A stretch of 64,000 nt of DNA from positions 1 through 64,000 of the forward strand of contig NZ_RDSM01000001.1 in assembly GCF_004115155.1 (NCBI RefSeq), given 5' to 3'. Position 1 is the first letter of the stretch. Every line of letters begins with the position of its first letter. Both the position numbers and the translations under genes were made by a program. This document shows positions 2,842 to 18,532 of this stretch, one piece after another. The stretch comes from Granulicella sibirica. Its GTDB lineage: Bacteria > Acidobacteriota > Terriglobia > Terriglobales > Acidobacteriaceae. The notes beneath the pieces are model-generated. The model had not been told where the DNA came from. It ran no database searches and worked only from the letters and a program-made list of their open reading frames with translations.

Positions 2842-2847
2842 GATCGT

Positions 2848-4848
2848 TCACTCGAAGTACGGATGCTGTTCGTTGAGCTCGACTACCTTCTGTTCCGGCT
2901 TCTTCTGGACACTCTGCGGAGCCTTTCGCCGTATCACTGGCTCTTCGACCGCGACCGACGCGGGCTGCGCTGCGGGTTGCAATGGCACAACCGGCGTCAT
3001 CTTTCGCTCGATGAACTTCTCCGCACGGTTCGCCAGCTCCATGTACGGGAAACGCATCTGCACAACGAGGTTGCCATGCTTGAGATAACCGTGCAGTGGA
3101 TCAAGCCCCGCAACCTCGCTTGCCATAACCAGCGGCTCACGCGTGATGTCGCGCTGTTCGCTCTCACGTCCGCGTGGGAACACGCCCTTGGTGCGCGACT
3201 CGCGGAAGCGTTCGACCTCGACTTCGCCGATGGCTTTTGAGATCCACTCGGACGCATGAGGCTCGCTGGTTTTAAGGAAGACCCTTGTCGCTGGCTGCGA
3301 GAGCATCGCCTCTGCAACGTGGCCGTACAGCGCCTCGACCTGAGCCTTTCCTTGGAAGCCCAGCACCATCGGATTATTCGATTTGCGGTTCTCCGTCACC
3401 GCCGTTTTGAGCTGCGGAAGATGCTGCAAGCTCGCCAGCTCATCCAGCACGAACCACGTCTTCAGCCGCGCTGTATCGTCGTTCATCATGCGCAATACGA
3501 GCAAGTCCAGCCACAGGCTGACGAGTGGCCGCATCCGCTCGCGCATCGTCGGCTTCGACGTGATGAACACCCATCCTTTGCGCTCCTTTGCCCACTCGAC
3601 CGTGCTCCAACGCTGCTTCGTTTCACGCTCCGAAGGCAGCAGCTTGAACGCATCGGCGACCATGTTCAGCGAGCCTAAGACACCGCTGCGCTGGTTCGCC
3701 GCGCCGCGGTCGATCATTGCGGCCATCTCCGTTCCGTCGATCCGTTTGTCGATCTCATCCGCGTTGCTCATCCAGTACGTCAGCTCTTGCGGCGTCGGCC
3801 TCTGGTTGATTAAGTGAGCGAAGATTTTGCGCGGCGCTTCGACGAAGAACCGGTTCTCCCGGCCCTGATCCGGGAACAGGCTGACGGCTAAGGTAAGGGC
3901 CTCTGCTTCGTGTGGAACCTCATCGCCCGGAGTCCAGAACGGGCAGCGTGCATCAAGCGGATTCAGGACCACGTCGCCGCGACTCTCGTTATAGAACTGC
4001 GGCAGATATTCCATGGCAGGGTCGTACACGATGGCCGCTTCGCCGCGATCTGCGATCTGCGCGAGAAGCTGCCGGATCGTCGCCGATTTGCCGGTGCCGC
4101 TATCGCCCACGATGAGGAAGTGCATCGCCTCGCGATCACGAGGAACTCGAACCCAGCGGCTAAGAGATTTATGGAAGGTCTTGTCCCACCAACTAGCCTC
4201 TTCGTTCACGAACGCGATGCCGTCCGGCAGATGCACGCGGATCGCTTTCGACCGGCCCAGCTTCGTGTTGAACTCCGCCGTCGAGACCAGCTCCGGCCCG
4301 CGAAGACGACGCCCATGTTTCCAGATCTGACGCCGCGCCCGATCCTTCGGAACCGCCACGAAGAGAGCCAGCACGAAAAACGCCAGCGAGAGATAGACCG
4401 GTATCCGGTAGAACGTCCACGCCTCGTGATCGGCGTACACGGCTTGACTCATCACCCGGTGCAGGCCCCGGTCGTTAAACACACCCGTCACCCAGGTCAG
4501 CCGCGCGATGCGATCCTTCACGCCCTCTTCCGTCAGGTGGTAACCCGGCCTGCCGTCCACGCTCGGCACCCGCTCGATCTCGTCGTCGATCACGAGCCGC
4601 TGGCTTTTGCCGACCACCGCCTCCAGTAGCGTGTACTTGCTCGATGCCGTGGCCGACGCTTGGCCCCGCGTTCCGCTCTTCAGGTAGTCCGTCAGGTACA
4701 GCCGCTCGGCCTCTGTCCAGCTTCGCTCGTACTGCCACGTCAGCAGCCCGGCCAGGAACACCGGCGTCAGTAGGAACGCCATCACCGTCCACACCGGCGT
4801 CCGGCTTGGCCATGCTTTCGAGTATTCCTTACGACCCCATTCCGCCAT
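2848..4848 (-). CDS. traD: Type IV coupling protein (TraD/VirD4/TrwB-like)
   Basis: This inner-membrane ATPase passes the relaxosome to the type IV secretion channel. Two membrane segments are visible (about 19-38 and 148-166), then a cytoplasmic RecA-like motor with Walker A GDSGTGKS at 248-255 and a Walker-B-like WFVLDELASL near 463. The 666-residue length is normal for the family. Its start overlaps the end of the upstream RHH gene by 20 bp, and the relaxase follows 6 bp after its stop. The order accessory - coupling protein - relaxase is that of R388-like MobF systems. No VirB channel genes are in the window; they would have to lie to the left or be supplied by another element. Confidence 0.9.
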   Translation of the reverse strand: MAEWGRKEYSKAWPSRTPVWTVMAFLLTPVFLAGLLTWQYERSWTEAERLYLTDYLKSGTRGQASATASSKYTLLEAVVGKSQRLVIDDEIERVPSVDGRPGYHLTEEGVKDRIARLTWVTGVFNDRGLHRVMSQAVYADHEAWTFYRIPVYLSLAFFVLALFVAVPKDRARRQIWKHGRRLRGPELVSTAEFNTKLGRSKAIRVHLPDGIAFVNEEASWWDKTFHKSLSRWVRVPRDREAMHFLIVGDSGTGKSATIRQLLAQIADRGEAAIVYDPAMEYLPQFYNESRGDVVLNPLDARCPFWTPGDEVPHEAEALTLAVSLFPDQGRENRFFVEAPRKIFAHLINQRPTPQELTYWMSNADEIDKRIDGTEMAAMIDRGAANQRSGVLGSLNMVADAFKLLPSERETKQRWSTVEWAKERKGWVFITSKPTMRERMRPLVSLWLDLLVLRMMNDDTARLKTWFVLDELASLQHLPQLKTAVTENRKSNNPMVLGFQGKAQVEALYGHVAEAMLSQPATRVFLKTSEPHASEWISKAIGEVEVERFRESRTKGVFPRGRESEQRDITREPLVMASEVAGLDPLHGYLKHGNLVVQMRFPYMELANRAEKFIERKMTPVVPLQPAAQPASVAVEEPVIRRKAPQSVQKKPEQKVVELNEQHPYFE

Positions 4849-5453: not shown

Positions 5454-5523
5454 TCAATCCGCTGCATAGCAGCGTAAGCTTTGTAGACGCTGCACACTGG
5501 CGATGAAAGAAGGTGATTGCAGG

Positions 5524-6477
5524 ATGCCGACTCTGTTTTTCTCCTATTCCCATGAAGACGAAAAGCTGCGCGATCAGCTCGAAGTCCACTTGGCAGGACT
5601 GAAGCGCCAGGGTGTCATTTCAACATGGCACGACCGGCGTATCTCGGCTGGGACGGAGCTAGGCAACACTATCGACCAGAATCTGAACGAAGCGGATGTG
5701 ATTCTTCTGCTCATCAGCCCAGACTTCATCAATTCGGATTACTGCTACGAGCGCGAGATGTTGCGAGCGATGGAACGCCACGACCGCCTGGAAGCAAGGG
5801 TGATTCCCATCATCTTGCGCCCGTGCGACTGGCACGGTCTTCCGTTCGGGAAGCTATTGGCCGCCCCGAAGGACGGTAAACCGGTCACCAAATGGGCGGA
5901 TCAAGACGACGCCTTTCTGGACATCGCGACGGCTATCAAAGATGCCCTCAAGGATCTCGGGAAAGCCACCTCATCCGTTAGTCCCCGGACCACCGAATCG
6001 TCAGCAACTCCTCAAAGCATCACGGCACCGATTCGTTCCAGCAACCTTAGAATTCGGAAGCAGTTCTCCGATCTCGATCGAGACACCTTCCGACACGAAG
6101 GATTCGACTTTATCGCCAAATTCTTCGAAGCGGCTCTCCTTGAGATCGCCAACCGCAATCCGGGTTTGGCGCAACGCTTTCAACGCGTAGACGCAAACCA
6201 CTTCACGGCATCTCTCTATCAAAATGGAGAGAAGGTTTGCAGAGGGTCTGCCTCCGTTGGCGGGGGACACATGGGCTCCGACAGCATTCAATATTCGATG
6301 ACCGATACACCACGGGATGGGGGAATGAACGAAGCCGTTTACGTGAAGAACGACGATCAAACCCTTTACTTCGAACCCCTCGGCATGCAGTCCTACGGAA
6401 ACCGGGATAAGCAGAAGCTCACGCCGCAAGGCGCTGCCGAGTTCTTTTGGGACTTGTTCATCCGCCCACTTCAGTGA
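5524..6477 (+). CDS. TIR-domain protein with an unrecognised C-terminal domain (probable defence effector)
   Basis: Residues 1-145 are a bacterial TIR domain: LFFSYSHEDEKL at the start, a DRRI/AGTELG loop, and the YCYERE motif with candidate catalytic glutamates (E76/E78). Many such domains cleave NAD+ in abortive phage defence. A Ser/Thr-rich linker (about 150-175) leads to a 140-residue domain beginning RKQFSDLDRDTF, which I do not recognise and which could be the sensor. The start at 5524 is chosen because the TIR fold begins there and GAAGG lies about 10 bp upstream; ATG 5503 is the alternative. There is no adjacent Thoeris ThsA or other partner, so it appears to act alone. It lies on the mobile element, divergent from the transfer genes. 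Confidence 0.8.
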   Translation: MPTLFFSYSHEDEKLRDQLEVHLAGLKRQGVISTWHDRRISAGTELGNTIDQNLNEADVILLLISPDFINSDYCYEREMLRAMERHDRLEARVIPIILRPCDWHGLPFGKLLAAPKDGKPVTKWADQDDAFLDIATAIKDALKDLGKATSSVSPRTTESSATPQSITAPIRSSNLRIRKQFSDLDRDTFRHEGFDFIAKFFEAALLEIANRNPGLAQRFQRVDANHFTASLYQNGEKVCRGSASVGGGHMGSDSIQYSMTDTPRDGGMNEAVYVKNDDQTLYFEPLGMQSYGNRDKQKLTPQGAAEFFWDLFIRPLQ

Positions 6478-6520
6478 GGCACCTTCCTTCACCTGGACCG
6501 TATGCGCTTCATGAGGTCAT

Positions 6521-7144
6521 TAAGTTAGCTTGCACAAACGCGCAGTCAGCGTGCTCATGCCGAGTGCTGGTGCGATGTTGGGGTTGTAGACAAGCTGGAT
6601 GTCCCGCAAACGAACGGAAGCGGCCAAACGTTCCATGTTCTCGCCGGGCTCGCCGCTGACTTCGTGCAGGTTGGGAGGCTCTACGCCATCCGTCTGCGAA
6701 GCGTCGAAGACGTAGGCATTACGGAATCCGAGCAATATCCGCGCGTTCTGCTCAGTGACGTCATTCTGGGCCTCCTCGTCCTTTTTGCGGCGAACGCCGA
6801 CGACGGGAGCGAGAATGCGAATGCCTTCTGTCCGGCCTTCAGGCTGCGTCCGAGTTTTCCATGTCCGGAATCCGGCGAAACGGGTCGCGGTCGGCATCTG
6901 CCGCGCGATCTCCAGCACGTTCCCAAAGCTGTAGTTATGGAACCGGCTCATAGCGGTGAGGTAGGTAGTTGGTAAGGGCTTCGGAGTGCCCGATCTCCAA
7001 CTGCTCAACCAAGAGCTTGATATTGGCCGCGATGAAACTCCTCTTTGATGGTTGGCTTCTTGCTGTAAATGGCGGTGGTGTAGTCCCTTATGGTGGCTTC
7101 TCATTGGCTTTTGCTGTTGCCACATCCGCGTTGAAACTCGGCAT
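6521..7144 (-). pseudogene. Second ArdC-like antirestriction gene, decayed by several indels
   Basis: The ArdC sequence can be followed from an ATG at 7144 (MPSFNADVATAKANEKPP) through the ssDNA-binding domain (SRFHNYSFGNV, AGFRTWK) into the peptidase half, stopping after APALGMS before the HExxH segment. The frame changes at least five times: near 7085-7090, an extra T near 7036, a 4-bp GTAG duplication at 6961-6968, a 2-bp loss just after TWK, and a 1-bp loss before GIRI that restores frame. The C-terminus is replaced by unrelated DNA. It is homologous to the fragment at 92-536 but not identical, so the two copies diverged before arriving or decaying here. Confidence 0.8.
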
Positions 7145-7592
7145 GTACATGCTGAACGCCACCTGGCGAAGGCGGGAGCAGCAAGGCGCAAGGGAGGGGT
7201 GTCCCCAACCTTGGAGCGAAGGCGAAGCTGGAGCAGAAAGGACGGAGCGCAGCGGCGGTCTGCACAAGCCCGCAGGGCGCGGAAGATTGGGGAAACCCTT
7301 GCGCCGCGCGATTGGGGCATCGCCCCTTAGCGAGGTTTGGCTTCCTTATTCGTGCGCGTTAGCGCACAGGAACTACAGGGTGGGCGTTGCAGGGGGGGAA
7401 CGGCCGCCCGCTGAGGTGGGTGACTGAAGACGCGTAGTGGCTGAAGGCAAGGCGTGCACCTCCTCAGCGCATTGTCGGATGGTGTTCTTAGAGTCCATCT
7501 AGGCCCATTTCGTCTGTACGTCAGGGCGATTGGATCAAGAGGAATCAATCCGACCGAGTATCATAGCGTCACGCTTCGTTCACGAGAAACCT
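7145..7592. other. Non-coding GC-rich stretch between ardC remnant and kwaA
   Basis: No convincing gene is seen in about 450 bp. Two small hairpins stand out: GGGGC-ATC-GCCCC at 7314-7326 and GTGCGC-GTTA-GCGCAC at 7352-7367. The right part must carry the kwaA promoter. It reads like plasmid-type spacer, and no replication gene or iteron series was found. Confidence 0.5.
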
Positions 7593-8105
7593 ATGCCGCG
7601 AATGTCCACCAGAGCGCTCCTGTTTTTGAGCTCATATTCTCCGCTGTTCCTCATCTTGTCGATGCGGGGATGGCGCGACAGCCGATATCTCGCTGTCGGA
7701 TTGGGCATCATAGCGTTACTTTCGATAAGCGGCTTGGTTCTTTTCCTTCGACTTGCCCGAAAGCTGCAAGCTTCTCGATTGTTCGTGGCTTCGGTTAAGT
7801 CGCGTGACGGGGATGTTATGAGCTATATCGTTACGTATCTCCTCCCGTTTCTCGCGATCAAAATGAACGACAAAATGGATGTAGCGTCGCTTGGTCTACT
7901 TCTTTCCGTCGTCGGAGTTCTCTATGTCAACTCTAATTTGATCCATACGAATCCCATCTTGAGCATCATGGGCTACCATCTTTTTGAAATCGAAGATTCG
8001 GATAGAAAAACGTCGACGTTAATCTGCAAGCGCTCTTACATTCGCACCGGTTCGGAACTCAGCGCCGTTTCAGTTGGTGACTATGTGCTCATGGAGAAAT
8101 CTTGA
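7593..8105 (+). CDS. kwaA: Kiwa defence membrane protein KwaA (probable)
   Basis: About 170 residues with four hydrophobic segments: ALLFLSSYSPLFLILS, YLAVGLGIIALLSISGLVLF, a YIVTYLLPFLAI segment, and LGLLLSVVGVLYVNSNL, followed by a short soluble tail. This size and topology match KwaA, the membrane sensor of the two-gene Kiwa anti-phage system. The N-P-I-L-S-I-M-G-Y-H stretch after TM4 resembles what I recall of the family. The call rests largely on the partner, since its stop overlaps the start of a KwaB-like gene (TGATG). The start at 7593 has a GAGAAA ribosome site 5 bp away; a TTG at 7530 is the upstream alternative. Confidence 0.72.
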   Translation: MPRMSTRALLFLSSYSPLFLILSMRGWRDSRYLAVGLGIIALLSISGLVLFLRLARKLQASRLFVASVKSRDGDVMSYIVTYLLPFLAIKMNDKMDVASLGLLLSVVGVLYVNSNLIHTNPILSIMGYHLFEIEDSDRKTSTLICKRSYIRTGSELSAVSVGDYVLMEKS

Positions 8106-9043
8106 TGCCTGCCGAAGAAGCTTTAGGAATTCTGGTCGCTGCATTTGCGGCGAATCCATCAACCAATGTCCTTCTCGTATCCGAACCGGAAGGAGAGACT
8201 GTTATACAGCGTCTAAATTTAGATGATGGCCTTGCCGCAGACTTTCGGTCTGTTGCGCAAGATGCTTGTTCGTACATCTTGGGCGCGCTTAGGCTGCGGG
8301 CATATGACCCGGGATACAAACCGGAGCCCGACGAGCTTTCATACATAGATTTGGCAAACGACGCTGATTTAGCGACTCGAATTCAAGAACTCACGAGAGT
8401 GCAACAAGCGGAGCTTTTTGTTGAAGACGATGCTGTGATTGATGCGCTTCGTTTCTACTCGATTGTGATCAGCCCTTCCGCACGGCGACATGCAGTGTTC
8501 TTACGCAGCTATAGTCCTAAGAAAGAACTTTCGCGGAAGACAGGATTCGCTGCGATTCTTGGACGCGGCCATTACAACAAGGTTGAAACGAAGATTTTCT
8601 TGTTTGACTGGAAGGTTGATTGTTTCGCTTGGGGAGGTTACCTATTCATCCCAAACGTATCCTCCTTCCAGCGAATCTTCAAGTACTTCGAAGGACTTCG
8701 AGCGAAGGCTCAAGAGACACTGGACACGATTTTGGCGCAGATCCCAGTTAGCAACGCTGATGACTTCAGGAACGCCTGTATCGGGCAGATTCAAATGATC
8801 TCCAAGTTGGCTCAGATCGCGCGGAAACCTTATCTCCCTGCGGTAACTATCGCAGACCTTCGACGCACGATCAATGAGTTTGACCTTGACGTGCAGATTG
8901 CTGAGATCGATGGGGAGGAGCGGCTTGTGTTTGAAGGGGCACCGGCTAAGCGCTGGCTGATCTTGAAACTTCTCGATGACAATTATCTGGGGTCGGTGAT
9001 GACGACGCTCAAGTACGAAGTAAATTCGAAAAGCCCTCTTTGA
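8105..9043 (+). CDS. kwaB: Kiwa effector KwaB (DUF4868 family, probable)
   Basis: A 312-residue soluble protein, close to the usual KwaB length of about 315. The central segment (FDWKVDCFAWGGYLFIPNVSSFQRIFKYFE) has the DUF4868 pattern of an acidic/aromatic strand followed by an F..IF.. helix. In Kiwa, KwaB is recruited by membrane-bound KwaA during infection and acts on phage DNA. Translational coupling to kwaA through a TGATG overlap supports the pair. ATG 8105 is chosen; a TTG one codon earlier is in frame. Base composition is visibly less G+C-rich than the chromosome to the right, as in the rest of this defence block. Confidence 0.74.
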   Translation: MPAEEALGILVAAFAANPSTNVLLVSEPEGETVIQRLNLDDGLAADFRSVAQDACSYILGALRLRAYDPGYKPEPDELSYIDLANDADLATRIQELTRVQQAELFVEDDAVIDALRFYSIVISPSARRHAVFLRSYSPKKELSRKTGFAAILGRGHYNKVETKIFLFDWKVDCFAWGGYLFIPNVSSFQRIFKYFEGLRAKAQETLDTILAQIPVSNADDFRNACIGQIQMISKLAQIARKPYLPAVTIADLRRTINEFDLDVQIAEIDGEERLVFEGAPAKRWLILKLLDDNYLGSVMTTLKYEVNSKSPL

Positions 9044-9085
9044 GCACGCTCTAATGCCGAGCATTCCCTAGAATGAAGTCATAGG

Positions 9086-9532
9086 ATGATTCGACCGACG
9101 CCACAACGAAGCGCAATCATGAGGGCGGTGAAGGCGAAGGATACTGCGCCCGAAATCCAGGTTCGCCGATTCGTTCACGCGCTTGGATATCGGTATCGGC
9201 TTCATCGTAAGGATCTTCCCGGCAAGCCAGACATGGTCTTTCCAAAGCAGCGAAAAGTGATTTTTGTTCATGGATGCTTTTGGCACGGACACTCATGTAA
9301 GAGAGGCGATAGAACACCGCAGACCAATCGCGAGTATTGGGAAGCAAAGATTGACCGAAATCGAAAACGAGATTCTGAACACCATAAGGCTCTTGAATCG
9401 CTTGGCTGGCAGACGTTGGTCGTCTGGGAGTGCCAGCTCCGTGATTCTTTAGAGCGTAGAAGGATCGAAGGTGATATCGCAGAGTATCTGTGTGAGAATA
9501 AGGTCCTCGCAAAAGCGGCTCTCACTTCCTGA
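9086..9532 (+). CDS. vsr: Very-short-patch mismatch endonuclease Vsr
   Basis: Vsr nicks 5' of the T in T:G mismatches that arise when 5-methylcytosine deaminates. The fold is clear: N-terminal SAIMRAVKAKDTAPE helix, the GKPDMVFP segment with the catalytic aspartate, and the zinc-site FVHGCFWHGH-SC region, then W..K...N..RD. The 148 residues match the family. It normally accompanies a C5-cytosine methyltransferase. One is present (15399-16547), but vsr is on the opposite strand, 42 bp behind kwaB and converging on the far end of the methyltransferase operon. It is therefore probably transcribed with Kiwa. A downstream ATG at 9119 would remove 11 residues. Confidence 0.93.
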   Translation: MIRPTPQRSAIMRAVKAKDTAPEIQVRRFVHALGYRYRLHRKDLPGKPDMVFPKQRKVIFVHGCFWHGHSCKRGDRTPQTNREYWEAKIDRNRKRDSEHHKALESLGWQTLVVWECQLRDSLERRRIEGDIAEYLCENKVLAKAALTS

Positions 9533-9603
9533 GAAGCCATTCTTGAGTCTCTCAAACGTAGAGGATAAAGCGCTCCAGGCGAGTCTCAAGATGTCGTCAA
9601 AGG

Positions 9604-10467
9604 CTATAGCTTGATTTCGAACCAATCCTCCAGCGTAAATTGCAACTCAGCAGATTCGGTCCAACGAAAACTTTCTGTGTCTGAAGGAATCACTCGCTGC
9701 AGCGCTCCATCTTTCAGTTGGTATGCGCCCAGAACATTCTCAGCATCGAATCTTTTTTGTACAAAAGCCCGATTGAGGAAGACTATCTGCACCAATCGCC
9801 ACTGGGAACCATATAGCAGAGATTTCTCATATTCGTTTCGCGTCAAGCTAAAGCGACTGCGAGTGTTTTCACTGGAAGCCTTAACCTCAACTCGATCAAC
9901 CCGGATATTCCTAGCTTCAATGTCGTATCCGAAGGCGTCCGATATGGCCGCAACGTGAAGGGGATCGTGCCCCGCTCTTGTCAAACTGTCGAGCATCAGG
10001 AGTTCAGCAGCGTTGCCAAGTTGCTTTCGAAGTTCCCCTTGCTCACCGTCTTTCACAGTCGAAGCCACCTCGAACAACAGTGCATCAAGATCGGGGTCGA
10101 GCCAGCTCAACTCATCTAGATCCCAAGAAGGGATGTATTCCCGTTTCACTTCTTGGCCGACTGCCAATCTCAGCCATAAGGGTGGGGAGGCCAACATAAC
10201 TAGACGTGCAATGCCGAAGAGGGACGCACGGTCCGCTGTTTCCAATAGAGGCTTAAGCTTCTCAACGATCAGAACGGCATCTTTGACTGTAGCTAATCCG
10301 TTCGCAACCATGGCTTCGGCTGGGCGAAGAAGGTTGAGCGACGCAGCCATGAAAGATGAAGCAGCTCTGGCTCCTTCAATCCACTCCTCAATGTTGCGGC
10401 GCCCTTTCAAAGTTGCTGAACGTCCGAGGAGAAAAACGGCAATGCACACCCCTTGATTAGGCAGCAT
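9604..10467 (-). CDS. DUF3883 (NO VEIN C-terminal) protein, PD-(D/E)xK-nuclease-like
   Basis: The C-terminal half (about 165-250) shows the DUF3883 pattern: a helix GNAAELLMLDSL, GYDIEA, then VEVKAS (the E-x-K strand) and FSLTRNEYEKS. This is the layout of a restriction-endonuclease-like core, with D in GYDI and E/K in EVK as candidate catalytic residues. The N-terminal 150 residues are helical and unrecognised. It is last in the methyltransferase operon and its start overlaps the helicase stop by 11 bp. In other defence loci such domains are fused to or neighbours of helicases, so it likely cuts or binds DNA with the upstream SNF2 protein. Nuclease activity is inferred, not shown. Confidence 0.7.
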   Translation of the reverse strand: MLPNQGVCIAVFLLGRSATLKGRRNIEEWIEGARAASSFMAASLNLLRPAEAMVANGLATVKDAVLIVEKLKPLLETADRASLFGIARLVMLASPPLWLRLAVGQEVKREYIPSWDLDELSWLDPDLDALLFEVASTVKDGEQGELRKQLGNAAELLMLDSLTRAGHDPLHVAAISDAFGYDIEARNIRVDRVEVKASSENTRSRFSLTRNEYEKSLLYGSQWRLVQIVFLNRAFVQKRFDAENVLGAYQLKDGALQRVIPSDTESFRWTESAELQFTLEDWFEIKL

Positions 10468-12355
10468 CCGCTTTTGCCTCGATATGATTAGCGATAGCCG
10501 TCAAATCGTCCGCGAACACGGGTGATGCGAGGGCGTCGTCATCGCTCTCGGGCAGCGAGACCTGCACTAGTCCCTCGTCATCCATGAGTCGCGAAAGGGC
10601 GATTACTTTATTTCGCAGTCTTCCGTCGACACTCTCATCGATCGTTTGTTGGCTGATGAGAATTGTGAACTTCGTGAGAGTACCGTCCGCTAGACCTAGC
10701 CGATGGATCCGGTCTTGGCTTTGAAGGAAGTGTCCCGCGTTGAATGTACGATCAAGATAAATTGCATGGTGACACCAGTGATGGAGGCTGACCCCTTCTC
10801 CCATGGCTGCTGGATTGGCCAGTAAGACGGTACAGGCAGGATCCTCGCGGAAGCGTTTTAACTCAGCATCGCGAGTGATTGTTGCGCCAGTTGGTGCCCC
10901 GTCTTCAGGGGGGATGCCGCCATGCACTATTGCAGGGTTGTAAATCGCCAGAAAACGCTGAAGTGCGGTCAAGTTCCGAACAAATGATGACCAGATGAGA
11001 ACTTTTTCACCTTTTTGTGTCGATTCAGAGACGATCTTCAAAATCGCCTCGTATTTCCATGGCGTTTCGTAATTTCTGTAGCTGGCGAGAAGATCCATCA
11101 ATGATTCATCGCCTTTGAGGTCAAGGGGAGGATGCGCAAAACCAGCAGCATCAAACGCGTCAGAACCCGCCGCCAGCAGCATGGGGTTGGTCGCACCTTC
11201 GAGGAGGTACATCACGATCCGACCGAGTCGGTCAAACTCCCTCCTCGTCGCCTTTGTTATGGCGAGCGAGGCCCTAAACTTTCCAATCAAGGCGTCGTAG
11301 ATAGCTTGTTGAATAGCGCCCATGGGACGACGTACGACCTCGAAAACTGTCGGCGGCAGACTTAGTCGCGCCTTCGGTGTGCGGACAAAATACCGCCTAA
11401 TCGCTTTCCCGGTTTCCCGAAGCACATCCTCGTCTCGTCCATCCTTCTCGATGTAAACGGATGACGGTAAAATTTGATGGTCCTGCCCGGGATATAAGAA
11501 ACGCACGAGAGCGATTAGGTCGAATGCGCCTTGGGGTGCTGGTGTACCGGTAAGGACATCCCTGCGCTTAGCAGCGTAAGCCAAATCCAAGACTGCACGG
11601 CCATGTACTCCGAAGGCTCCGCGTTTTACTCTGTGAGCCTCATCGAGGATCAATTGAGTGGGTCGTTCCGCTACGAAAGCCCGAATACGATCATAGTCAG
11701 ATGCCACACGGTGATAGCTAGTCAGCAGGATGGTCGTATTCTGCGGGATCAAAGCATCTGGGCCACCATGGACCGAGACAACTGGGCTTGGAACAATGCA
11801 CTTTACTGAGTCTTCCTTCCAGGCGGCAAAGGCAGCCAATGGACCAATAACTAACATGCGTTCCACGTCACCGCTCATGCGGGCCAGCGCGAAGTTAGCG
11901 AGCGCTACAGTCGTTTTACCAGCTCCAGGAACCGAAAAGTCGGCGCCGTGAGGAAGACTTCTAATCGCGGCCAAGTTTTCAAGCTGAAACGACTTCAGTT
12001 CGCGGATAAATCCTGACTCTTTGAGTTGTCGAGCCAAGTCATCGGCGTCAAATCTTGAATTGGCCGCCGTCACTGCGGCCTCTCTCGCGAACCGATCAGA
12101 GGCCAGAGATTTCAGTTGTGATCTTAGCGTCCCGCCGAAGTCGATTTCGGTTCCATAAATGGTACGTACTTCGCGCAGTGCAGCAAGTTCCGAGAAGAAT
12201 ACGTCGATACGGACCTCTAAGCGGTTGGGTGACCCACCTACTATCCCGCGACTGAAAGCTTCTTGTAGTCGCGCCCAGGCACCCGCATCTCCATCAGCTT
12301 CGCGCTGAAGGATGACTAACGGTCGGCCAGCCGCGTAGAGTTCTGCCGATATCAT
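10457..12355 (-). CDS. SNF2/DEAD-like superfamily 2 helicase (DNA translocase)
   Basis: A 632-residue SF2 ATPase. The Q-like region FQLENLAAI precedes Walker A VPGAGKTT (about 142-149). LILDEAH is the DEAH box near 235, LTGTPAPQG is motif III near 268, and the second lobe has VLIWSSFVRN and the QSQDRIHRLG motif VI typical of SNF2 proteins. Such proteins move along duplex DNA rather than unwind it. The first ~130 residues are unrecognised and may dock partners. Its start overlaps the ParB-like gene by 4 bp (ATGA) and its end overlaps the DUF3883 gene by 11 bp, so the three are probably made in fixed ratio. It resembles helicases of restriction and DISARM-like loci, without their marker genes. 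Confidence 0.85.
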   Translation of the reverse strand: MISAELYAAGRPLVILQREADGDAGAWARLQEAFSRGIVGGSPNRLEVRIDVFFSELAALREVRTIYGTEIDFGGTLRSQLKSLASDRFAREAAVTAANSRFDADDLARQLKESGFIRELKSFQLENLAAIRSLPHGADFSVPGAGKTTVALANFALARMSGDVERMLVIGPLAAFAAWKEDSVKCIVPSPVVSVHGGPDALIPQNTTILLTSYHRVASDYDRIRAFVAERPTQLILDEAHRVKRGAFGVHGRAVLDLAYAAKRRDVLTGTPAPQGAFDLIALVRFLYPGQDHQILPSSVYIEKDGRDEDVLRETGKAIRRYFVRTPKARLSLPPTVFEVVRRPMGAIQQAIYDALIGKFRASLAITKATRREFDRLGRIVMYLLEGATNPMLLAAGSDAFDAAGFAHPPLDLKGDESLMDLLASYRNYETPWKYEAILKIVSESTQKGEKVLIWSSFVRNLTALQRFLAIYNPAIVHGGIPPEDGAPTGATITRDAELKRFREDPACTVLLANPAAMGEGVSLHHWCHHAIYLDRTFNAGHFLQSQDRIHRLGLADGTLTKFTILISQQTIDESVDGRLRNKVIALSRLMDDEGLVQVSLPESDDDALASPVFADDLTAIANHIEAKADAA

Positions 12356-13671
12356 TCGGTCATCCGTAGTTTTGAGAGCAGCGTCTCAACTGCATCGAGT
12401 TGCTTGTCTAGATCGCCTTCAGCCCAGTCAGTGAGCGTCCGAGCCCTCGGTAGCGCGCTGAGTGCACGCTCGAGTTCCGCGACAGCCTTCTTTGTGCGAA
12501 CCACTGGGGCGGTAACGGTAGTCTGGTCCTTTTGCTCTTCTTCGGCTTCGTCCGCCGCAGCGTTGATAGCGCTCTGCAGGGTATCCAGAAGGTGTTGTAC
12601 AACTGCGGTTCCGCCTCTTGGCAGATCGATCGTTTCCTCACGTTTTTTGGTAGCCAACAATCCAAGTACATCGTTCAGACGATTTGACCTCGGGTCGGCA
12701 CCAAGGACCGCATCCAGTGGATCATCGAGATCGATAACTCTTCCCGCATCTGGAGCGACATCTAGAAGTGGGCTTAGCGCAGCGTCGTTCTCAATCTCGT
12801 TCAACACCATACGCGCCGCATCCGGCCGTCTGAGGTGTCGGAGACGACGATAATTTACGTTTGATAACGTCCCGAGAAAATAGGTAGAGCGAACGCTGTC
12901 GGCTTCATCTTTGGACTTGTTTCGAATGTGTTTCGTTAACTCGTCAAACGCGGACTCATTCTCCTTGAAATCGATGTGGAGTCGAGCCCCGCCGGATAGC
13001 GAGACGAGTTGGTGTACCTGCTGAAGTTTTTCGTGTAGCTGCCTAACGGCTGAAGCTTCTCGATGCATGCGAGCGCCAACACGCTCATAATCTTTGCCTT
13101 CACGGTCGTAAAGCTCTTCGATCAGAAGAGCTTCGTTGATCCATGAGTAATCTTCCTTGAAATCACGCGCTACCTGGAGTTCTGCTTCAAGGTCCAAGAG
13201 TTCTGCCGGCGTAGCATCGTCGGGCAAGACGAGACACTTGACATAGCGCGCATCTAAGTGTGGCGGCTTGTTGCTGTAGAGATTACGGAGCGCTGCTGAT
13301 CGCCTATTTCCGTTGATGAGTATTCCGTCAGCCGTAAGCACTGCTGGCTCTTGCTGTTTTCTCGCCAACAGATCTTCTTTCAGGACTTCGAAACCCTCTT
13401 GCGCGGCGAGGATCTTATACTGTGCCTCTTGAGCAACTGGACCAAGTGGATCGGCGGTGAAAAGAGTCGGGTTGTTCGAATCCCGGATTGCCTGAAGTTG
13501 TTCTGCCCTGGTGCGATGATTCAATGTTGAAAATCGGACCCACGATACCTCCATGTGTACGACAGGCAGCTCCTTTATTGGTCTAGGCCAAGCTGGTAGG
13601 AGCATTTTCCCTTCAGTTTCACGCGCTTTCAAAAACGCCACGCGCTCTTGGTCGAGGATCGGATTTGGCAT
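12352..13671 (-). CDS. ParB/sulfiredoxin-fold protein of a defence operon
   Basis: The N-terminal third contains a ParB/Srx-type core: IKELPVVHMEVSWVRF, then DGILINGNRRSAAL (about 105-120), the counterpart of the G-D/N-x-R-R motif that binds NTP in ParB relatives. The remaining ~270 residues are helical, with long charged stretches and a C-terminal leucine-rich coil. ParB-fold enzymes occur in chromosome segregation, but also as nucleotide-dependent switches or nucleases in conflict systems. The setting between nuclease-like and helicase genes favours the latter. The ATG at 13671 is chosen: AGGAA lies 6 bp upstream and the previous gene stops 1 bp before it. Exact function unknown. Confidence 0.65.
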   Translation of the reverse strand: MPNPILDQERVAFLKARETEGKMLLPAWPRPIKELPVVHMEVSWVRFSTLNHRTRAEQLQAIRDSNNPTLFTADPLGPVAQEAQYKILAAQEGFEVLKEDLLARKQQEPAVLTADGILINGNRRSAALRNLYSNKPPHLDARYVKCLVLPDDATPAELLDLEAELQVARDFKEDYSWINEALLIEELYDREGKDYERVGARMHREASAVRQLHEKLQQVHQLVSLSGGARLHIDFKENESAFDELTKHIRNKSKDEADSVRSTYFLGTLSNVNYRRLRHLRRPDAARMVLNEIENDAALSPLLDVAPDAGRVIDLDDPLDAVLGADPRSNRLNDVLGLLATKKREETIDLPRGGTAVVQHLLDTLQSAINAAADEAEEEQKDQTTVTAPVVRTKKAVAELERALSALPRARTLTDWAEGDLDKQLDAVETLLSKLRMTE

Positions 13672-13672
13672 A

Positions 13673-14515
13673 TTAGTTCCTAAAAGTTGTTGAGCGGCCC
13701 GCACCGAAGCGCGAGCAGATTGTGGTTCGAAGAGAGCCGTTCCGTCTCTGGAAACCTACGTGTCCCAAATAGGCTGGAACTTGATCAGAGGTGATGCCGA
13801 AGAGGCTAAGAAGCTTACCCGGGAAAGAACGCTCTTGCGTGGCATTCCAATTCCACTCAACGGCATCGCTTGCCCGTTCCGGCATGGCGTAGATGCATGG
13901 AGGCGGAACCAGCTTTCCAGAAATCATGATTCCTCGCTCCGCCTTCGGGCAAGGCCGTTGAGGAGTACCGCAGAGCTCGTTATGGAAAATCACCCCGTCC
14001 AATTCATCAGTTGCTTCGCCAAAAAATCTTTGCCTGAGCCGATTCACTCCTTTTGCGACGTGCTCACCAGGTTCGTAGGCAAGGCTGGAGCAGAGCCACC
14101 AAAGATAGGTTTCGCGGGCCCAGGCAGGCCTGTTCCATCGGACGCTGCTGTGAGCTCCGTCAGGACAGCCTTTCTGTATGACTCCAACGTCTCCCTAGTC
14201 CGGGACGTGAAGCTTGTAAATCGTATCTTCCCCGTAGGTGGGTATGTCGTAGCCGGAGATGATCTCGCGTGAAACCATCTCGTCGAAGATTGTCCTCAGA
14301 AAGAGACGACGGTCCGAATTACTCGCACTCTGGCTGCCTCGCATGGCCTCAAGGACCATTGGGAGAGCCGCAGTATACTCGGAGGGGCTCAATCCTCTAG
14401 AGGCCAGGAAGCTTTCATCGAAAGCCAACGCTTCGATGAGCGCTGAGACCTTTTCCACTACTGGAGTGGGTGGAACTCCGGCATTTCGGCAAGGCATTGC
14501 AAGTTTCGCATCCAT
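13673..14515 (-). pseudogene. Nuclease-like paralogue interrupted by an in-frame amber codon
   Basis: Two open stretches (14515-14198 and 14194-13673) are in the same frame, separated only by TAG at 14195-14197. Read through, they give a protein of about 280 residues that aligns along its length with the 285-residue product just upstream. Shared blocks are KGC.DG, R..W.R..P, DGVI......CGT..RPCPK, VPP.C.Y..P and LL..F, with a similar C-terminal basic strand. The E-P-K of the partner reads I-Q-K here, so a catalytic acid seems absent. The start has GAGAGAAG 5 bp away, and the stop abuts the ParB-like start. It may be a true pseudogene, a suppressed amber, a sequencing error, or a C-terminal fragment expressed from ATG 14047. 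Confidence 0.75.
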
Positions 14516-14544
14516 CAATCTTCTCTCAGTCGCTAATTCTCGGC

Positions 14545-15402
14545 CTACGCTCTTCGAATAAAAGTCAGGTTGGATTCCTTTACTACAGCACCGTTACGGC
14601 GTACTCTCGTACGTCTTTTCAAGGTACCTTTATCCTCCGCGACGTCAAAATCGACGTAGTTAATTTCGTCGTCGTTCCCTCCGAAGCAAAGGTGAAAAGC
14701 CCGGAGCAGTTCAACTTCCTCTAAGGTTTGGGCCGCAGAGATAATGCGTTCTGGCAGTTCCGGAAGTTTCTTAGGCAAAACATATAGACATGTTGGCGGA
14801 ACAGTGTAGTGTGCAACCCGAGTAGTGCGGTTTGGCCGTTCGAACAATTTTGGGCAAGGGCGCCCAACGGTCCCGCAAACCATATCCCAGACGATGACGC
14901 CGTCAATACATTGCTTGCGGATGAGCATCTCAGAACTAAGTCGGGTATGGAGACCGGACCACACATTCAGACGAGGATCTGCTGCTGCGTTCTGGCACAG
15001 GCTCCAGATAAAAAATTCGTCGGCATAAGGGGGTCTCTCGAAAATTGTCGTGTTGTTGCCATCTAAACACCCCTTGGGTTCGACTACGCTCGTTTTCCCG
15101 GTTGGAAGCTTCACTACATATTCATGTCGGTTGTCTCCAGCTGTTGGCTCCCATTCCGCTATGAAACCGCCGTCCTGCATGTGATTGAGAATGTCTCGTA
15201 CAAACTCGCGCTTTCCGGTCGTCTCGGCTGAGAACTGACCACGAATCCGCTCGATAGCGCCGCGGAATACCCCGGCACCGTAAAACTGTTCTTCCGACAG
15301 TCCGTGGTTTCCCAAAGTGTGGGCATGAGCTTTCAGCGACTCCGCATATTCGTCAACCAAAATGCTCAGGTTGTGATCCTGCTTACAAGGAATCACGCTC
15401 AT
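14545..15402 (-). CDS. Putative PD-(D/E)xK restriction-type nuclease subunit
   Basis: 285 residues. An N-terminal helical part (about 1-85) is followed by TGKTSVVEPKGCLDGNN, where E-P-K fits the (D/E)xK strand of restriction-endonuclease folds and the preceding GDNRHEYVVK strand could supply the acidic partner. A helix FFIWSLCQNAA, the DGVIVWDMVCGTVGRPCPK block and a basic C-terminal strand follow. I do not recognise the family by name. The nuclease call is inferred from the motif and from its place: its ATG overlaps the methyltransferase stop by 4 bp and a homologous gene follows 29 bp downstream. Together the pair could be the cutting subunits of a type II-like system. A DNA-recognition role without cleavage is the alternative. 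Confidence 0.5.
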   Translation of the reverse strand: MSVIPCKQDHNLSILVDEYAESLKAHAHTLGNHGLSEEQFYGAGVFRGAIERIRGQFSAETTGKREFVRDILNHMQDGGFIAEWEPTAGDNRHEYVVKLPTGKTSVVEPKGCLDGNNTTIFERPPYADEFFIWSLCQNAAADPRLNVWSGLHTRLSSEMLIRKQCIDGVIVWDMVCGTVGRPCPKLFERPNRTTRVAHYTVPPTCLYVLPKKLPELPERIISAAQTLEEVELLRAFHLCFGGNDDEINYVDFDVAEDKGTLKRRTRVRRNGAVVKESNLTFIRRA

Positions 15403-16547
15403 GCGGCAGCCGATGACCTCTGGTTTCGCGAAGCGAGCAACGGCTCGAAAATCCGGGCAGCTAGGTGTCGAACTACCGGGACGACAACTCCGTCACCCGT
15501 CAGATGGTAGGCCTCGTTGTAGTTGCTCGGGAGCTTGTAACTTTCCTCTAAGCCCATTAATCTAGCGGTTTCCCTGCTTGAGATCAATCTGGCTTTTATT
15601 GATTTCCCTTCAACTACAAGCACCACTTGCCGACTTGATCCTCCCGACGGCGTTCTCAAGCACCCGGAGATGTCATCAAATCTAACTTCCGCACGTTGGA
15701 CCTTATCACCTTCTTGCGTGGGGCGAGTGCGTTTGTAGATACAGCCAACCATTCTCTTCCCCTCAGTAACTGCGCGGATGACTTTGGCGCGGTTTGTGGG
15801 ACTCATCATACCGAGAAGTCGTTCTGTTTCTGACGGGGAAAACCAAGGCGTGTCAGCAGATTCCTCCAAGAGGTCAGCGAAAGTCGTGGAGCGCTCAGCC
15901 GGGCGAGGAAGATTCCACCATATCCAGCTTCTCTTCGTTTGAGATGGGAGCTTAGCAAACGCTCGACTTAAAGTGTCAGTATGCCAAGGTGAGTATGGAA
16001 CCAGAGAAATGAGTTCTTCCGGAACAGCAAGATCTTTACGAACGCCGATTATGAATAGTCGAGGACGTGATTGCGGCACAAAAAGAGAAGCGTTGACGAC
16101 CAGTGCGCCCACCTCGTAACCCGCTTGTTCGACCTGATTGCAAATCGTGGCGAAGTCCTTGCCGCCGTGCGAAGTAATTGCACCACATACATTCTCCAAG
16201 ACCATAACTTTCGGAGCGCGCCCTTCTTGGATGAGGCTTCGCATCAGTTTCCAAAATGGCTTAAAAGTACCCGATCGGTTTCCCTGAAGCCCAGCCCCTC
16301 CGCCTGCGAGGGAGAGATCTTGACAAGGAAATGAAGCCCAAACGAGATCTGCTAGTCCGGGAAGATCGGTGGTAGCCAAAGCCCCAACATCTTCTGTCTT
16401 GAGCTCTTTCTGGCCCCAATTCGCTACGTACGAATGACTCTTTTTGTGATCGAAGTCATTAGCGAATAAACACGTCCAGCCCTCGCCAAGGCCAGCGCGA
16501 GCCATTCCACCACCAGCGAAGAACTCGTAAAAGCTAGGCATTTGCAT
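15399..16547 (-). CDS. DNA (cytosine-5-)-methyltransferase
   Basis: It methylates C5 of cytosine at a specific site and so would protect host DNA from the linked nuclease. Motif I FFAGGGMARAGL (about 9-20), motif IV PCQDLS with catalytic C75, motif VI LENV (117-120) and motif VIII QSRPRLFIIG (159-168) are all visible. The target-recognition region lies between about 180 and 300. Motif X is near the end (SNYNEAYHLTGDGVVVPVV). The length of 382 is normal for a single-chain M.HhaI-type enzyme. It overlaps the small regulator upstream by 14 bp and the nuclease-like gene downstream by 4 bp. Target sequence cannot be told from the protein. The linked vsr suggests deamination at its site is costly. 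Confidence 0.95.
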   Translation of the reverse strand: MQMPSFYEFFAGGGMARAGLGEGWTCLFANDFDHKKSHSYVANWGQKELKTEDVGALATTDLPGLADLVWASFPCQDLSLAGGGAGLQGNRSGTFKPFWKLMRSLIQEGRAPKVMVLENVCGAITSHGGKDFATICNQVEQAGYEVGALVVNASLFVPQSRPRLFIIGVRKDLAVPEELISLVPYSPWHTDTLSRAFAKLPSQTKRSWIWWNLPRPAERSTTFADLLEESADTPWFSPSETERLLGMMSPTNRAKVIRAVTEGKRMVGCIYKRTRPTQEGDKVQRAEVRFDDISGCLRTPSGGSSRQVVLVVEGKSIKARLISSRETARLMGLEESYKLPSNYNEAYHLTGDGVVVPVVRHLAARIFEPLLASRNQRSSAAA

Positions 16548-16719
16548 TCATCCTTCGCTGCCGCTCAGCGTCCAGCTTTTCCAAAATAGCTTCGCAAATC
16601 CACGTATTCCGCGATACACTGCCTGCCCGTCTGGTGCGTTCCTCGTCGATCTGCTCCCATACGTCCGGGTCTAGTCTCAGATTTAGGCGTGGACGCTCCA
16701 CAACTGCACAATTATTCAT
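16534..16719 (-). CDS. Small ribbon-helix-helix regulator of the methyltransferase operon
   Basis: A protein of about 61 residues. RPRLNLRLDPDVWEQIDEE gives the strand and first helix, and SVSRNTWICEAILEKL the second helix of an Arc/CopG/MetJ-type fold. It is first in the operon, overlaps the methyltransferase start by 14 bp, and its own start lies inside a block of repeated short motifs. This arrangement suggests autoregulation and timing of the operon, in the manner of restriction-system C proteins, though the fold differs from HTH C proteins. ATG 16719 is preferred; GTG 16737 adds six residues. No clear ribosome site is seen, so the message could be leaderless. Confidence 0.68.
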   Translation of the reverse strand: MNNCAVVERPRLNLRLDPDVWEQIDEERTRRAGSVSRNTWICEAILEKLDAERQRRMNANA

Positions 16720-16748
16720 GCACAATAATGGCGCCACAATGGCGCCAA
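16703..16748. promoter_or_regulatory. Operator-like repeat cluster at the start of the methyltransferase operon
   Basis: Two copies of TGCACAAT and two copies of AATGGCGCCA (each containing the palindrome TGGCGCCA) are packed within about 45 bp and overlap the regulator start codon. Such close spacing of short repeats suits cooperative binding by a ribbon-helix-helix dimer. Binding is inferred only. Confidence 0.5.
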
Positions 16749-17134: not shown

Positions 17135-18400
17135 CTACTCTGCGAGGCCCCTTTTAGCTGACCCTTTCTTCTTCGCTGAGTCGTTCTTCAGACGGGGTTT
17201 CATCACATTGATTGCTGAAGCATCGAGCTGAGTCTTCAAGTGGGCCGCATAATATTTCTCAATCATCTCTACGCTGGTTCGGCAGTTCTTGGCGATCTGG
17301 TAGATGTCAGCCCCTTCAAGAAGTCGCAAACAGATATAGGTGTGGCGAAGGCTATATGCCGTGCGCGGTCTCTCATCACGATCTTTTCGTAGTTTTTCTT
17401 CGTCAAGAATTTTGTTGAACAAGTCACGGGACCACTTCGGAAACAGAAGGTCGGTTGGCTCTGGTTTCTGCCACTCCCCACTTTCCAGCGAGTTTTTCCG
17501 ACTTCCTGCACGCCCTGGCCCACCATGCGGACGCAAGCGATTCTCCAAACGCTCGAACGGTCGCACGGCCCCGACCGTGCTCTTGCAGAATCCAATTCCT
17601 CTTTTACCTCGAACTTCGATCTCTAAAATCGTCTGGCCGCTGCCCTCGTCCTCGACGACCTTCACATTGCGGAACTGAAGGCGCATCGCTTCATCTGGGC
17701 GAAGCCCGGTATTCGCAGAGAACAGTACATAGTCGTGGAGCTGCTCCGCTTCCCAGCGGAAGCGAGGCTGCTTCGGGTGCTGCGCCCGCTTGCGGGTCGC
17801 TTCGTAGAGTTTCTTGTACTCTTCCGGCGAGAACCATGCTCGATGAGAGATCTTGGCCGACGCCCGGTAGGGAGCGGACATGTACGGCAGATAATCGATC
17901 CATCCGTGACGCAGAGCGGTCTTGAATATTTGGCGCAACGTCACGATCTCCTGGTGCATAGTGCTATGCGCTGGAGGCTTGCCTCGGTTTTCTTTGGCTT
18001 CTTCTAGTCGATGGATGCGATATTCATTGATCTTGCCCGCAGTGATTTCGGGAAGCACCATGCTGCCGAAGAAGGGAACGAGATGGCCATTCGTGCGCGC
18101 GTGCTTTCCACGCGCGTATGTCGCGTTTCGCTGTCCCTGCGTCATAATGCCGAACTCACGCAGATACAACTTGGCAGCCTCGCGGAATGGCTTGCCGCTC
18201 TTCAGGTTGCCATCGCGGAGTTTGCCACGCAACTGCAAATACCAATCCTCAGCGAACTCCTTCGCTTTGGAGAGACTGTCTTCTTTGGTCGTTGTCCGCC
18301 GGTTCTTTCCGGCCAAGTAGGTCGCACATTGCCAGCTAGAACTATTCGGACGCCTGTAGACGTGAACCTTGCCACCGAGGATGGTGTGGTGTTCGGACAT
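17135..18400 (-). CDS. int: Tyrosine site-specific integrase of the element
   Basis: A 421-residue tyrosine recombinase. The N-terminal region is a beta-rich arm-binding part, a SAM-like core-binding domain follows at about 70-170, and the catalytic domain follows that. Catalytic residues visible are R234 (NTGLRPDE), R352-H353 in SLRHTY (the usual first His is Ser) and the nucleophile in EKYYAAH (Y383/Y384). The position where most relatives have a second His reads NCRTS, so that box is degenerate. The start at MSEHH is chosen because GGGAGG lies 9 bp upstream; the frame is open for 20 more codons. Its 5' end is about 130 bp from the interrupted tRNA-Leu, which marks it as the enzyme that integrated the element there. 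Confidence 0.92.
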   Translation of the reverse strand: MSEHHTILGGKVHVYRRPNSSSWQCATYLAGKNRRTTTKEDSLSKAKEFAEDWYLQLRGKLRDGNLKSGKPFREAAKLYLREFGIMTQGQRNATYARGKHARTNGHLVPFFGSMVLPEITAGKINEYRIHRLEEAKENRGKPPAHSTMHQEIVTLRQIFKTALRHGWIDYLPYMSAPYRASAKISHRAWFSPEEYKKLYEATRKRAQHPKQPRFRWEAEQLHDYVLFSANTGLRPDEAMRLQFRNVKVVEDEGSGQTILEIEVRGKRGIGFCKSTVGAVRPFERLENRLRPHGGPGRAGSRKNSLESGEWQKPEPTDLLFPKWSRDLFNKILDEEKLRKDRDERPRTAYSLRHTYICLRLLEGADIYQIAKNCRTSVEMIEKYYAAHLKTQLDASAINVMKPRLKNDSAKKKGSAKRGLAE

Positions 18401-18532
18401 GCAGGAGCGCCTCCCGACATCCAAAATACTACGAAAGTGTGCAAGCGTTGTGCAACACAATTGGCTGCATCTTGCCCCAGCTAACCCTTTTATTATGAAT
18501 GATTTATAGGGTCACAAGAAGGTGTCTTAGAC

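Follow-up and report, generated by a model that had tools for sequence, protein, structure and literature searches.

A type II restriction-modification set joined to a ParB-SNF2-DUF3883 cassette with a putatively inactivated restriction-enzyme homologue in Granulicella sibirica

Introduction

Among the described systems closest to the locus considered here, CglI and NgoAVII consist of a C5-cytosine DNA methyltransferase (MTase), a nuclease, and an SF2 ATPase, the latter two being distinct subunits; their cleavage requires nucleoside triphosphate hydrolysis, and translocation has been proposed (PMC4267653, PMC5737866). The same kinds of parts are encoded by an operon of the acidobacterium Granulicella sibirica, which we analyzed within a window of 64,000 nucleotides (positions 1 to 64,000 of contig NZ_RDSM01000001.1, RefSeq assembly GCF_004115155.1). 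The PLD nuclease and B3-like domain that feature in the R subunits of CglI and NgoAVII were found in none of the operon proteins at Pfam E≤0.1. The operon contains genes for an MTase, a type II restriction endonuclease (REase), a homologue of REases without both catalytic acids (hereafter X), a ParB-family protein, an SNF2-family ATPase, and a DUF3883 protein, and a gene for the mismatch endonuclease Vsr lies next to it.

Several other systems share individual parts with this locus. Type II restriction-modification (R-M) sets with Vsr resemble its MTase, REase, and Vsr genes but lack ParB, SNF2, and DUF3883 proteins and an inactive REase homologue. An SNF2-type helicase core is held in common with DISARM, Zorya, Dpd, and BREX (PADLOC profiles ZorD, DpdE, and DrmD; best E 1e-15), and NCBIfam scores for DrmD and ZorD were far under their cut-offs. 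Beyond this core and the likeness of the MTase to DrmMII, the operon genes matched no further protein of these four systems. DISARM comprises DrmA, DrmB (DUF1998), and DrmC; PADLOC found only helicase similarity to DrmA and DrmD and MTase similarity to DrmMII in the operon. Zorya pairs the ZorA/ZorB membrane motor with ZorD/ZorE; the likeness to ZorD is confined to the helicase core, and neither ZorA nor ZorB was found by PADLOC among ten proteins scanned. The MTase matches the DruM2 profile of Druantia type II (2e-161). Druantia is marked by the giant helicase protein DruE, and the DruE, DruF, and DruG profiles were not matched by the tested operon proteins (for the MTase, among the best 25 of 54 families). 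Membership in Druantia or DISARM was considered and dropped, as it rests on single-gene matches. Finally, Sau3AI is a single-chain enzyme without an ATP-driven motor, whose inactive C-terminal half binds DNA; its residues 261-509 are homologous to a sensor-like protein in a distantly related Lactiplantibacillus operon. No named system was matched in PADLOC-DB 2.0.0, in NCBIfam (window proteins), or in the literature searched, in agreement with a preliminary description of the locus, which had placed it outside the named systems.

Two modules in one operon

Reading the open reading frames (ORFs) of the window places the operon on the minus strand, from 16737 (or 16719) down to 9604. Its products are, in order, a ribbon-helix-helix (RHH)-like protein of 67 aa, the C5 MTase (382 aa), the REase (285 aa), X (interrupted), the ParB-family protein (439 aa), the SNF2 protein (632 aa), and the DUF3883 protein (287 aa). 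Neighboring genes overlap by 14, 4, 4, and 11 bp or are otherwise separated by gaps of 1-29 bp, which bears out the closely packed, one-strand operon of the preliminary description. The further proposal that these seven genes form one conserved unit did not hold: the REase is present in 2 of 29 close relatives of the locus and the RHH protein in 3 of 34 loci, and an MTase, REase, and Vsr trio is found elsewhere without a ParB homologue. As judged from the sequences, the unit is two joined modules. We consider it probable that the locus is a type II R-M set joined to a second, ATP-dependent restriction arm, X-ParB-SNF2-DUF3883, in which a dead REase serves as the sensor, probably of the same DNA site. 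The idea put forward earlier, of a restriction-type system that is guarded by methylation, driven by an SNF2 motor, and equipped with a DUF3883 nuclease, is supported by the comparisons below.

Scoring 8000 candidates returned 476 homologues of the ParB-family protein at E≤1e-3, and a scan of one genome per species (84,980 species) gave 33 loci, 29 of them close (L002-L030) and four distant (L031-L034). We took the 29 close loci as our census, comparing the window proteins by blastp with ORFs within 10 kb on each side, and handled the distant loci apart; neighbor ORFs were limited to at least 70 aa, and the smaller RHH protein was scored by tblastn. X was present in all 29 loci, SNF2 in 28, DUF3883 in 25 (26 by tblastn), the MTase in 27, Vsr in 24, and the REase in two. 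Moreover, X is directly upstream of the ParB-family gene in 29/29, and the order X-ParB-SNF2 recurs in 28/29 on distinct contigs; therefore, the cassette is not a chance association. The preliminary description had asked for a search of gene order in other genomes, where the neighbors might have differed every time, and they did not. Some of the close loci are akin, L024 and L026 being 95% identical over the cassette. The misses at L004, L022, L025, and L030 fall at the ends of the sequence examined, and Vsr is missing from L017, L028, and L029, tblastn included. MTase and Vsr genes differ between loci in strand and side relative to the cassette, and the REase is also found, together with X, on a Rhizobium ruizarguesonis plasmid (L036).

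Loss of catalytic acids in X

X lies at 13673-14518 (minus strand, ATG at 14515). In the REase family, an aspartate before a conserved tyrosine and an E-x-K-G-x-x-D-G motif are near-invariant. A motif search found E or D two positions before the lysine in 121 of 122 distinct REase sequences, and D or E before the tyrosine in 120 of 122; of the other two, one has G and in one the position was not found. In X, both of these positions hold I or V in 147/147 scored sequences, and neither acid is kept in any (148 distinct sequences were collected, of which one without the search motif was dropped). The residue counts cover the best 120 of 2821 REase homologues and the best 120 of 413 X homologues, plus sequences from the loci. 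X retains the lysine and many other REase positions, with the K and DG of K-G-x-x-D-G present in nearly all sequences. Since both acids are replaced while the lysine and many other positions stay, X is apparently an inactivated restriction enzyme kept for DNA binding and not for cutting.

The preliminary description had listed a duplicated nuclease-like pair and had treated the fourth gene as a single open frame. Neither point survives: the first member matches a type II REase profile over its full length, and the second is the homologue without catalytic acids, whose frame, from 14515 to 13673, is broken by an amber stop, TAG, at codon 107 (14195-14197, minus strand). This stop is missing in the close relatives P0282 and P0335. 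When the intact 280-aa metagenomic relative P0282 was searched against the window genome, residues 1-280 aligned at 83% with one internal stop, and the only matches were this copy of X and the REase. A reading of X as two short genes was considered and dropped, as both pieces are collinear with one 280-aa relative. The stop may have arisen by recent mutation, reflect an error of sequencing, or be suppressed. Because of this nonsense codon, the X-ParB-SNF2-DUF3883 arm is probably impaired in this genome; the MTase, REase, and Vsr genes are intact.

ParB-family protein, SNF2 motor, and DUF3883 protein

The gene for the ParB-family protein (12352-13704, minus strand) encodes 439 aa from its likely start, ATG 13671, with an alternative GTG at 13704; its assignment draws on homologues, alignments, and HHalign. 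The protein has a DG(I/V)LINGNRR box followed by a helix-turn-helix (HTH)-like region. Two wide alignments of the protein matched 24 canonical ParBs in HHalign at 94-95%, with low per-residue confidence, and four unrelated control families scored at most 0.05%. The overlap with canonical ParBs consists of the box ('LINGNRR' against 'LIAGERR') and the HTH region after it. Thus, the N-terminal box with conserved arginines and the HTH region, by which the ParB superfamily is recognized, are both found on the wide alignments, a result that supports the assignment.

The SNF2-family ATPase/translocase (632 aa; 10457-12355, minus strand) matches PF00176 (1e-16) and PF00271 (1.2e-6) and carries the motifs GAGKT, DEAH, and QSQDRIHR. 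Across the SNF2 set, which takes in truncated distant members, GxGKT is present in 32/32 and DEAH and motif VI in 29 each. The helicase domains listed by Pfam are SNF2-rel_dom, Helicase_C, ResIII, and DEAD only.

The DUF3883/NOV_C protein (287 aa; 9604-10467, minus strand; PF13020, 1.5e-7) is a predicted nuclease, with residues E155, D182, E194, and K196 invariant in 27/27 sequences and a D/ExK nuclease signature. One paper names DUF3883 as a novel REase domain and describes its fusion to SNF2 helicases encoded in R-M operons (PMC3710099), and another lists DUF3883 as a presumed type IIR group (PMC10609329). DUF3883 is therefore a likely candidate for the cutter, and SNF2 for the motor, of the cassette. 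Among the domain calls of the preliminary description, those of the C5 MTase, SNF2, and DUF3883 were confirmed by Pfam, and those of the RHH protein (PF01402, E 0.03, under the curated cut-off) and of ParB (PF18763, E 0.039) stayed under threshold, ParB being backed by the wide HHalign comparisons. A sequence search of the Protein Data Bank (PDB) with the REase, ParB-family, and DUF3883 proteins gave no convincing match.

The type II restriction-modification set

The C5-cytosine MTase (15399-16547, minus strand; PF00145, 9.4e-47) has the motifs FAGGG, PCQ, and ENV. The adjacent REase (14545-15402, minus strand) matches the PADLOC REase_II profile PDLC03501 over its full length (E 4.9e-111) and keeps the catalytic signature D/E94...E108-x-K110. 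Both genes are open frames, so an intact MTase and an intact REase gene stand side by side, as in a type II R-M system. Vsr, a T:G mismatch endonuclease (9086-9532, plus strand; PF03852, 5.9e-32; TIGR00632, 6e-44), is convergent with the operon and lies just beyond the segment covered by the preliminary description (9604-16719). By sequence, these three genes are an ordinary type II R-M set, and the same trio is adjacent on the 16-kb Desulfosarcina plasmid Do28_2, where our plasmid search matched no ParB homologue.

The RHH-like gene (16534-16737, minus strand, from GTG 16737, with ATG 16719 possible) overlaps the MTase gene by 14 bp. Its three homologues detected by tblastn each sit just upstream of an MTase (L028, 3235-3360; L029, 7780-7929; L037, a plasmid of Azospirillum sp. 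TSH58, 15054-15188), which suggests that the RHH protein regulates the MTase/REase module; the REase is also present in two of these three loci.

Of the 34 clustered loci, 12 have a GIY-YIG protein in the vicinity of the MTase or Vsr, five a DUF4928-type protein, and two the window-type REase. Pfam identification covered two GIY-YIG members (L010 and L007) and two DUF4928 members (L005 and L037, the latter outside the 34), and both DUF4928 members also match a PADLOC REase_II profile. With GIY-YIG and DUF4928-type proteins taking its place near the MTase or Vsr, the window REase is, on this comparison, one of several interchangeable MTase partners, and X is fixed to ParB-SNF2. A CCGCGG target, considered on account of the GIY-YIG neighbor, was dropped, since Pfam gave a general GIY-YIG domain only and the PDB search returned no Eco29kI match. 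In the target-recognition region of the MTase, 63-80 of 128-133 residues are identical to the window in two REase-only plasmid loci and ten X-bearing proteobacterial loci. Because these regions are alike, the comparison suggests a common DNA target for the MTases of the window, of the REase-only plasmids, and of the proteobacterial X loci.

Distant ParB-SNF2 operons with other restriction parts

More distant ParB-SNF2 operons contain other restriction parts. An N4/N6 MTase, a BglII-like protein (PF09195), and ParB, SNF2, and NOV_C proteins occur together in L047, L049, and L057, the three loci of this group for which Pfam was run on the upstream MTase. BglII-like proteins are also present in L069-L071, and for L057, L070, and L071 the match falls slightly short of the Pfam cut-off; L072 equals L070 and L080 shares its sequence, so L070 alone was counted. 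In HMMER alignments with BstYI and BamHI, D119 and E128 of BstYI, which we take to be the catalytic residues, correspond to N and T in the BglII-like protein from L049 and to F and Q in the remaining five proteins, four of them near-identical. These candidate sensors thus lack the BstYI/BamHI acids in 6/6 loci.

A Cenarchaeum metagenome-assembled genome (MAG; L034) combines ParB, SNF2, and NOV_C proteins with an EcoO109I-like protein and an N4/N6 MTase. ParB, SNF2, and NOV_C stand with a D12 MTase in L048, and a D12 MTase, ParB, and SNF2 are followed by the contig edge in L031. In L050, an MTase-like protein accompanies ParB, SNF2, and DUF3883, with no recognized REase-like protein. A Lactiplantibacillus plantarum plasmid (L073) encodes ParB, a PLD-SNF2 fusion, a Sau3AI-C-like protein, a C5 MTase, and Vsr. 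The Sau3AI-C-like protein aligns to Sau3AI residues 261-509 (4pxg; E 4e-42) and to 2reu, and its E-x-K is replaced by K-L-K in the comparison with 4pxg and by V-V-K in that with 2reu. The prophage record of Streptococcus phage Javan191 (L079, 1-6607) opens with BanI-like, ParB, SNF2, and DUF3883 genes and a convergent C5 MTase; by its gene content, this locus is a phage-borne version of the system. A PDB search with the BanI-like protein returned no restriction enzymes among its matches.

On the Enterococcus plasmids L077 (4360-8158) and L078 (4345-8161), ParB-family and SNF2 genes follow a gene whose 860-864-aa product has a stretch resembling sigma-70 region 4, with a weak match in L077; further upstream, L077 has type I HsdS and HsdR genes. 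Among Enterococcus plasmid records, 52 contain ParB-family relatives. SNF2 proteins of 851-862 aa with an N-terminal PLD-like domain follow the ParB-family gene on Lactiplantibacillus, Priestia, and Exiguobacterium plasmids (L073, L075, and L076), where no adjacent DUF3883 was detected; the PLD-like match of L076 is just under the cut-off. L032, L074, and L076 were covered by gene tables or partial scans, and we left aside L082 (a ParB profile match, with no SNF2 match) and L051-L053 (weak ParB matches).

Proposed mechanism and alternative explanations

The conserved gene order, the loss of acids from X, the intact ATPase motifs, and the nuclease signature are features of the sequences themselves; from them we infer complex formation, a shared target, a ParB switch, and cleavage. 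In the mechanism that we propose, X would bind its unmethylated target without cutting. The ParB-family protein, probably switched by a nucleotide and perhaps acting as a clamp, as in the ParB CTPases, would couple bound X to DNA and to the motor. Once this protein and SNF2 are loaded, SNF2 would translocate along or remodel DNA with ATP, and this ATP-driven movement would license DUF3883 to cut. The MTase would mark host sites and so guard self, and Vsr would repair T:G mismatches arising from deamination of 5-methylcytosine.

The distant operons raise a wider idea, for which we see the chances as even: that different type II REases (the window family and BglII-, EcoO109I-, and Sau3AI-C-like proteins) have repeatedly been turned into dead, methylation-sensitive readers for a shared ParB and SNF2 engine with an exchangeable nuclease (DUF3883 or PLD) and a matching MTase, making up a modular class of ATP-dependent restriction in bacteria and archaea. 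If this is true, restriction specificity would move from an enzyme to a motor complex by loss of the active site with the ability to read kept, which would account for the persistence of inactive REase homologues next to motors and nucleases that are intact. It would also open a route to target prediction, with sensor and MTase sharing one site, and would bring a ParB-family protein into restriction, in a defense class unnamed in PADLOC-DB 2.0.0.

Several observations weigh against the dead-sensor arm or its generality. L023 is without DUF3883 even by tblastn, and the MTase (27/29) and Vsr (24/29) figures are raw counts without a baseline for unrelated genes within 10 kb. Other acids are conserved in X (D99 in 94%, D121 in 99%, and E137 in 99%), and HHalign found no match for the narrow ParB alignment A3 (0.05%). 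Actinobacterial MTases except that of L014 are 33-37% identical to the window overall and share 28-38 of 123-129 residues (about 22-31%) in the recognition region; because of this divergence, a single target across the entire set is unproven. The EcoO109I-like protein has T where its sole aligned relative has D, and in this relative xK is preceded by S instead of E, which makes the comparison a weak one. The Sau3AI C-terminal half (residues 261-509) is presumably an inactive DNA-binding domain already, so the Sau3AI-C-like protein is not an independent inactivation. The BanI-like protein of Javan191 keeps acids as D...DxS and may, from this pattern, be an active nuclease, so that an inactive sensor is not universal. 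Moreover, annotation of L077 and L078 shows neither an MTase nor an REase-like gene adjacent, and ParB-SNF2 may thus have other contexts too.

Some of these points could be accommodated if X were still a nuclease, its active site rebuilt from other conserved residues, in a multi-nuclease complex where X both cuts and binds. The conserved D99, D121, and E137, the retained K and DG of K-G-x-x-D-G, and the D...DxS of the Javan191 counterpart would fit this explanation, but we regard it as unlikely: the canonical acids are V or I at both positions in every scored X, the BglII-like counterparts are without theirs too, and DUF3883 supplies an intact alternative nuclease in the same cassette. It is likewise improbable, in our view, that X, ParB, SNF2, and DUF3883 form an independent defense system, with an MTase target unrelated to it, that hitchhikes beside restriction sets in defense islands. 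The varying strands and sides of MTase and Vsr and the several REase-like partner families near the MTase (GIY-YIG 12, DUF4928-type five, and window REase two, of 34) would be expected of such hitchhiking, and the co-occurrence counts are raw. However, the frequencies of MTase and Vsr look tighter than that, the REase to which X is homologous is a partner of the same MTase subfamily, and the distant ParB-SNF2 operons have their own, different MTases in line.

X and the REase are adjacent homologues of similar length in the window, L028 is arranged likewise, and the Rhizobium plasmid L036 has both, as would be the case if X were a regulator or subunit of the adjacent REase, either a heterodimer partner or an inhibitor, rather than the SNF2 sensor. 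Yet 27/29 X loci have no REase in the sequence examined (up to 10 kb on each side), X always adjoins ParB, and the Desulfosarcina plasmid has REase, MTase, and Vsr without a matched ParB homologue, which makes this role very unlikely. A function of the ParB-family protein in plasmid or element partition, with the cassette as a stability module of a mobile element, seems extremely unlikely. Its homology to ParB and its presence on plasmids and near genes for conjugation and integrase-like proteins point that way, but the annotated plasmid loci that we read have no ParA gene within the cassette, the protein is linked to SNF2, X, and the MTase, and the 'partition protein' labels of database records derive from the domain.

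Spread and genomic setting

The cassette order is common to Proteobacteria and Actinobacteria, and hosts include Streptomyces, Nocardia, Micromonospora, Rhizobium, Mesorhizobium, a Herbaspirillum MAG, and a Verrucomicrobiales MAG in which the sequence ends inside ParB. Because the hosts are so diverse, horizontal spread of the cassette is likely from its distribution. Its occurrence is sporadic: 5/397 genomes of the window's order and 6/396 of its phylum match at E≤1e-3, the window's own being the only close match, and a wide profile matched 4/349 genomes of another phylum at 1e-8, among them the genome of the query itself. Plasmid-borne cassettes were found in Azospirillum, Rhizobium, Mesorhizobium, and Kozakia. 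On a Mesorhizobium mediterraneum plasmid (L055), an IS481-family transposase gene (13346-14293) lies between SNF2 and DUF3883, and the annotated DUF3883 is short.

In the window, the GC content of 7500-16740 is 52%, and that of the flanks on both sides is 60-62%. TrwC relaxase and TrwB coupling protein genes lie at 499-4848 (minus strand), an ArdC-N-like protein, with a match under the cut-off, is encoded at 6520-7320, and an integrase-like protein at 17135-18460. Given these genes nearby and the lower GC content, the defense genes of the window look like the cargo of an integrative conjugative or mobilizable element. Two further defense loci lie at lower coordinates than the operon: a ThsB-like TIR protein of the Thoeris type (5503-6477, plus strand; PADLOC ThsB, 9.6e-126) and a Kiwa pair, KwaA (PADLOC, 1.6e-26) and KwaB (PADLOC, 2.7e-22), at 7530-9043 on the plus strand, directly upstream of vsr and on the same strand.

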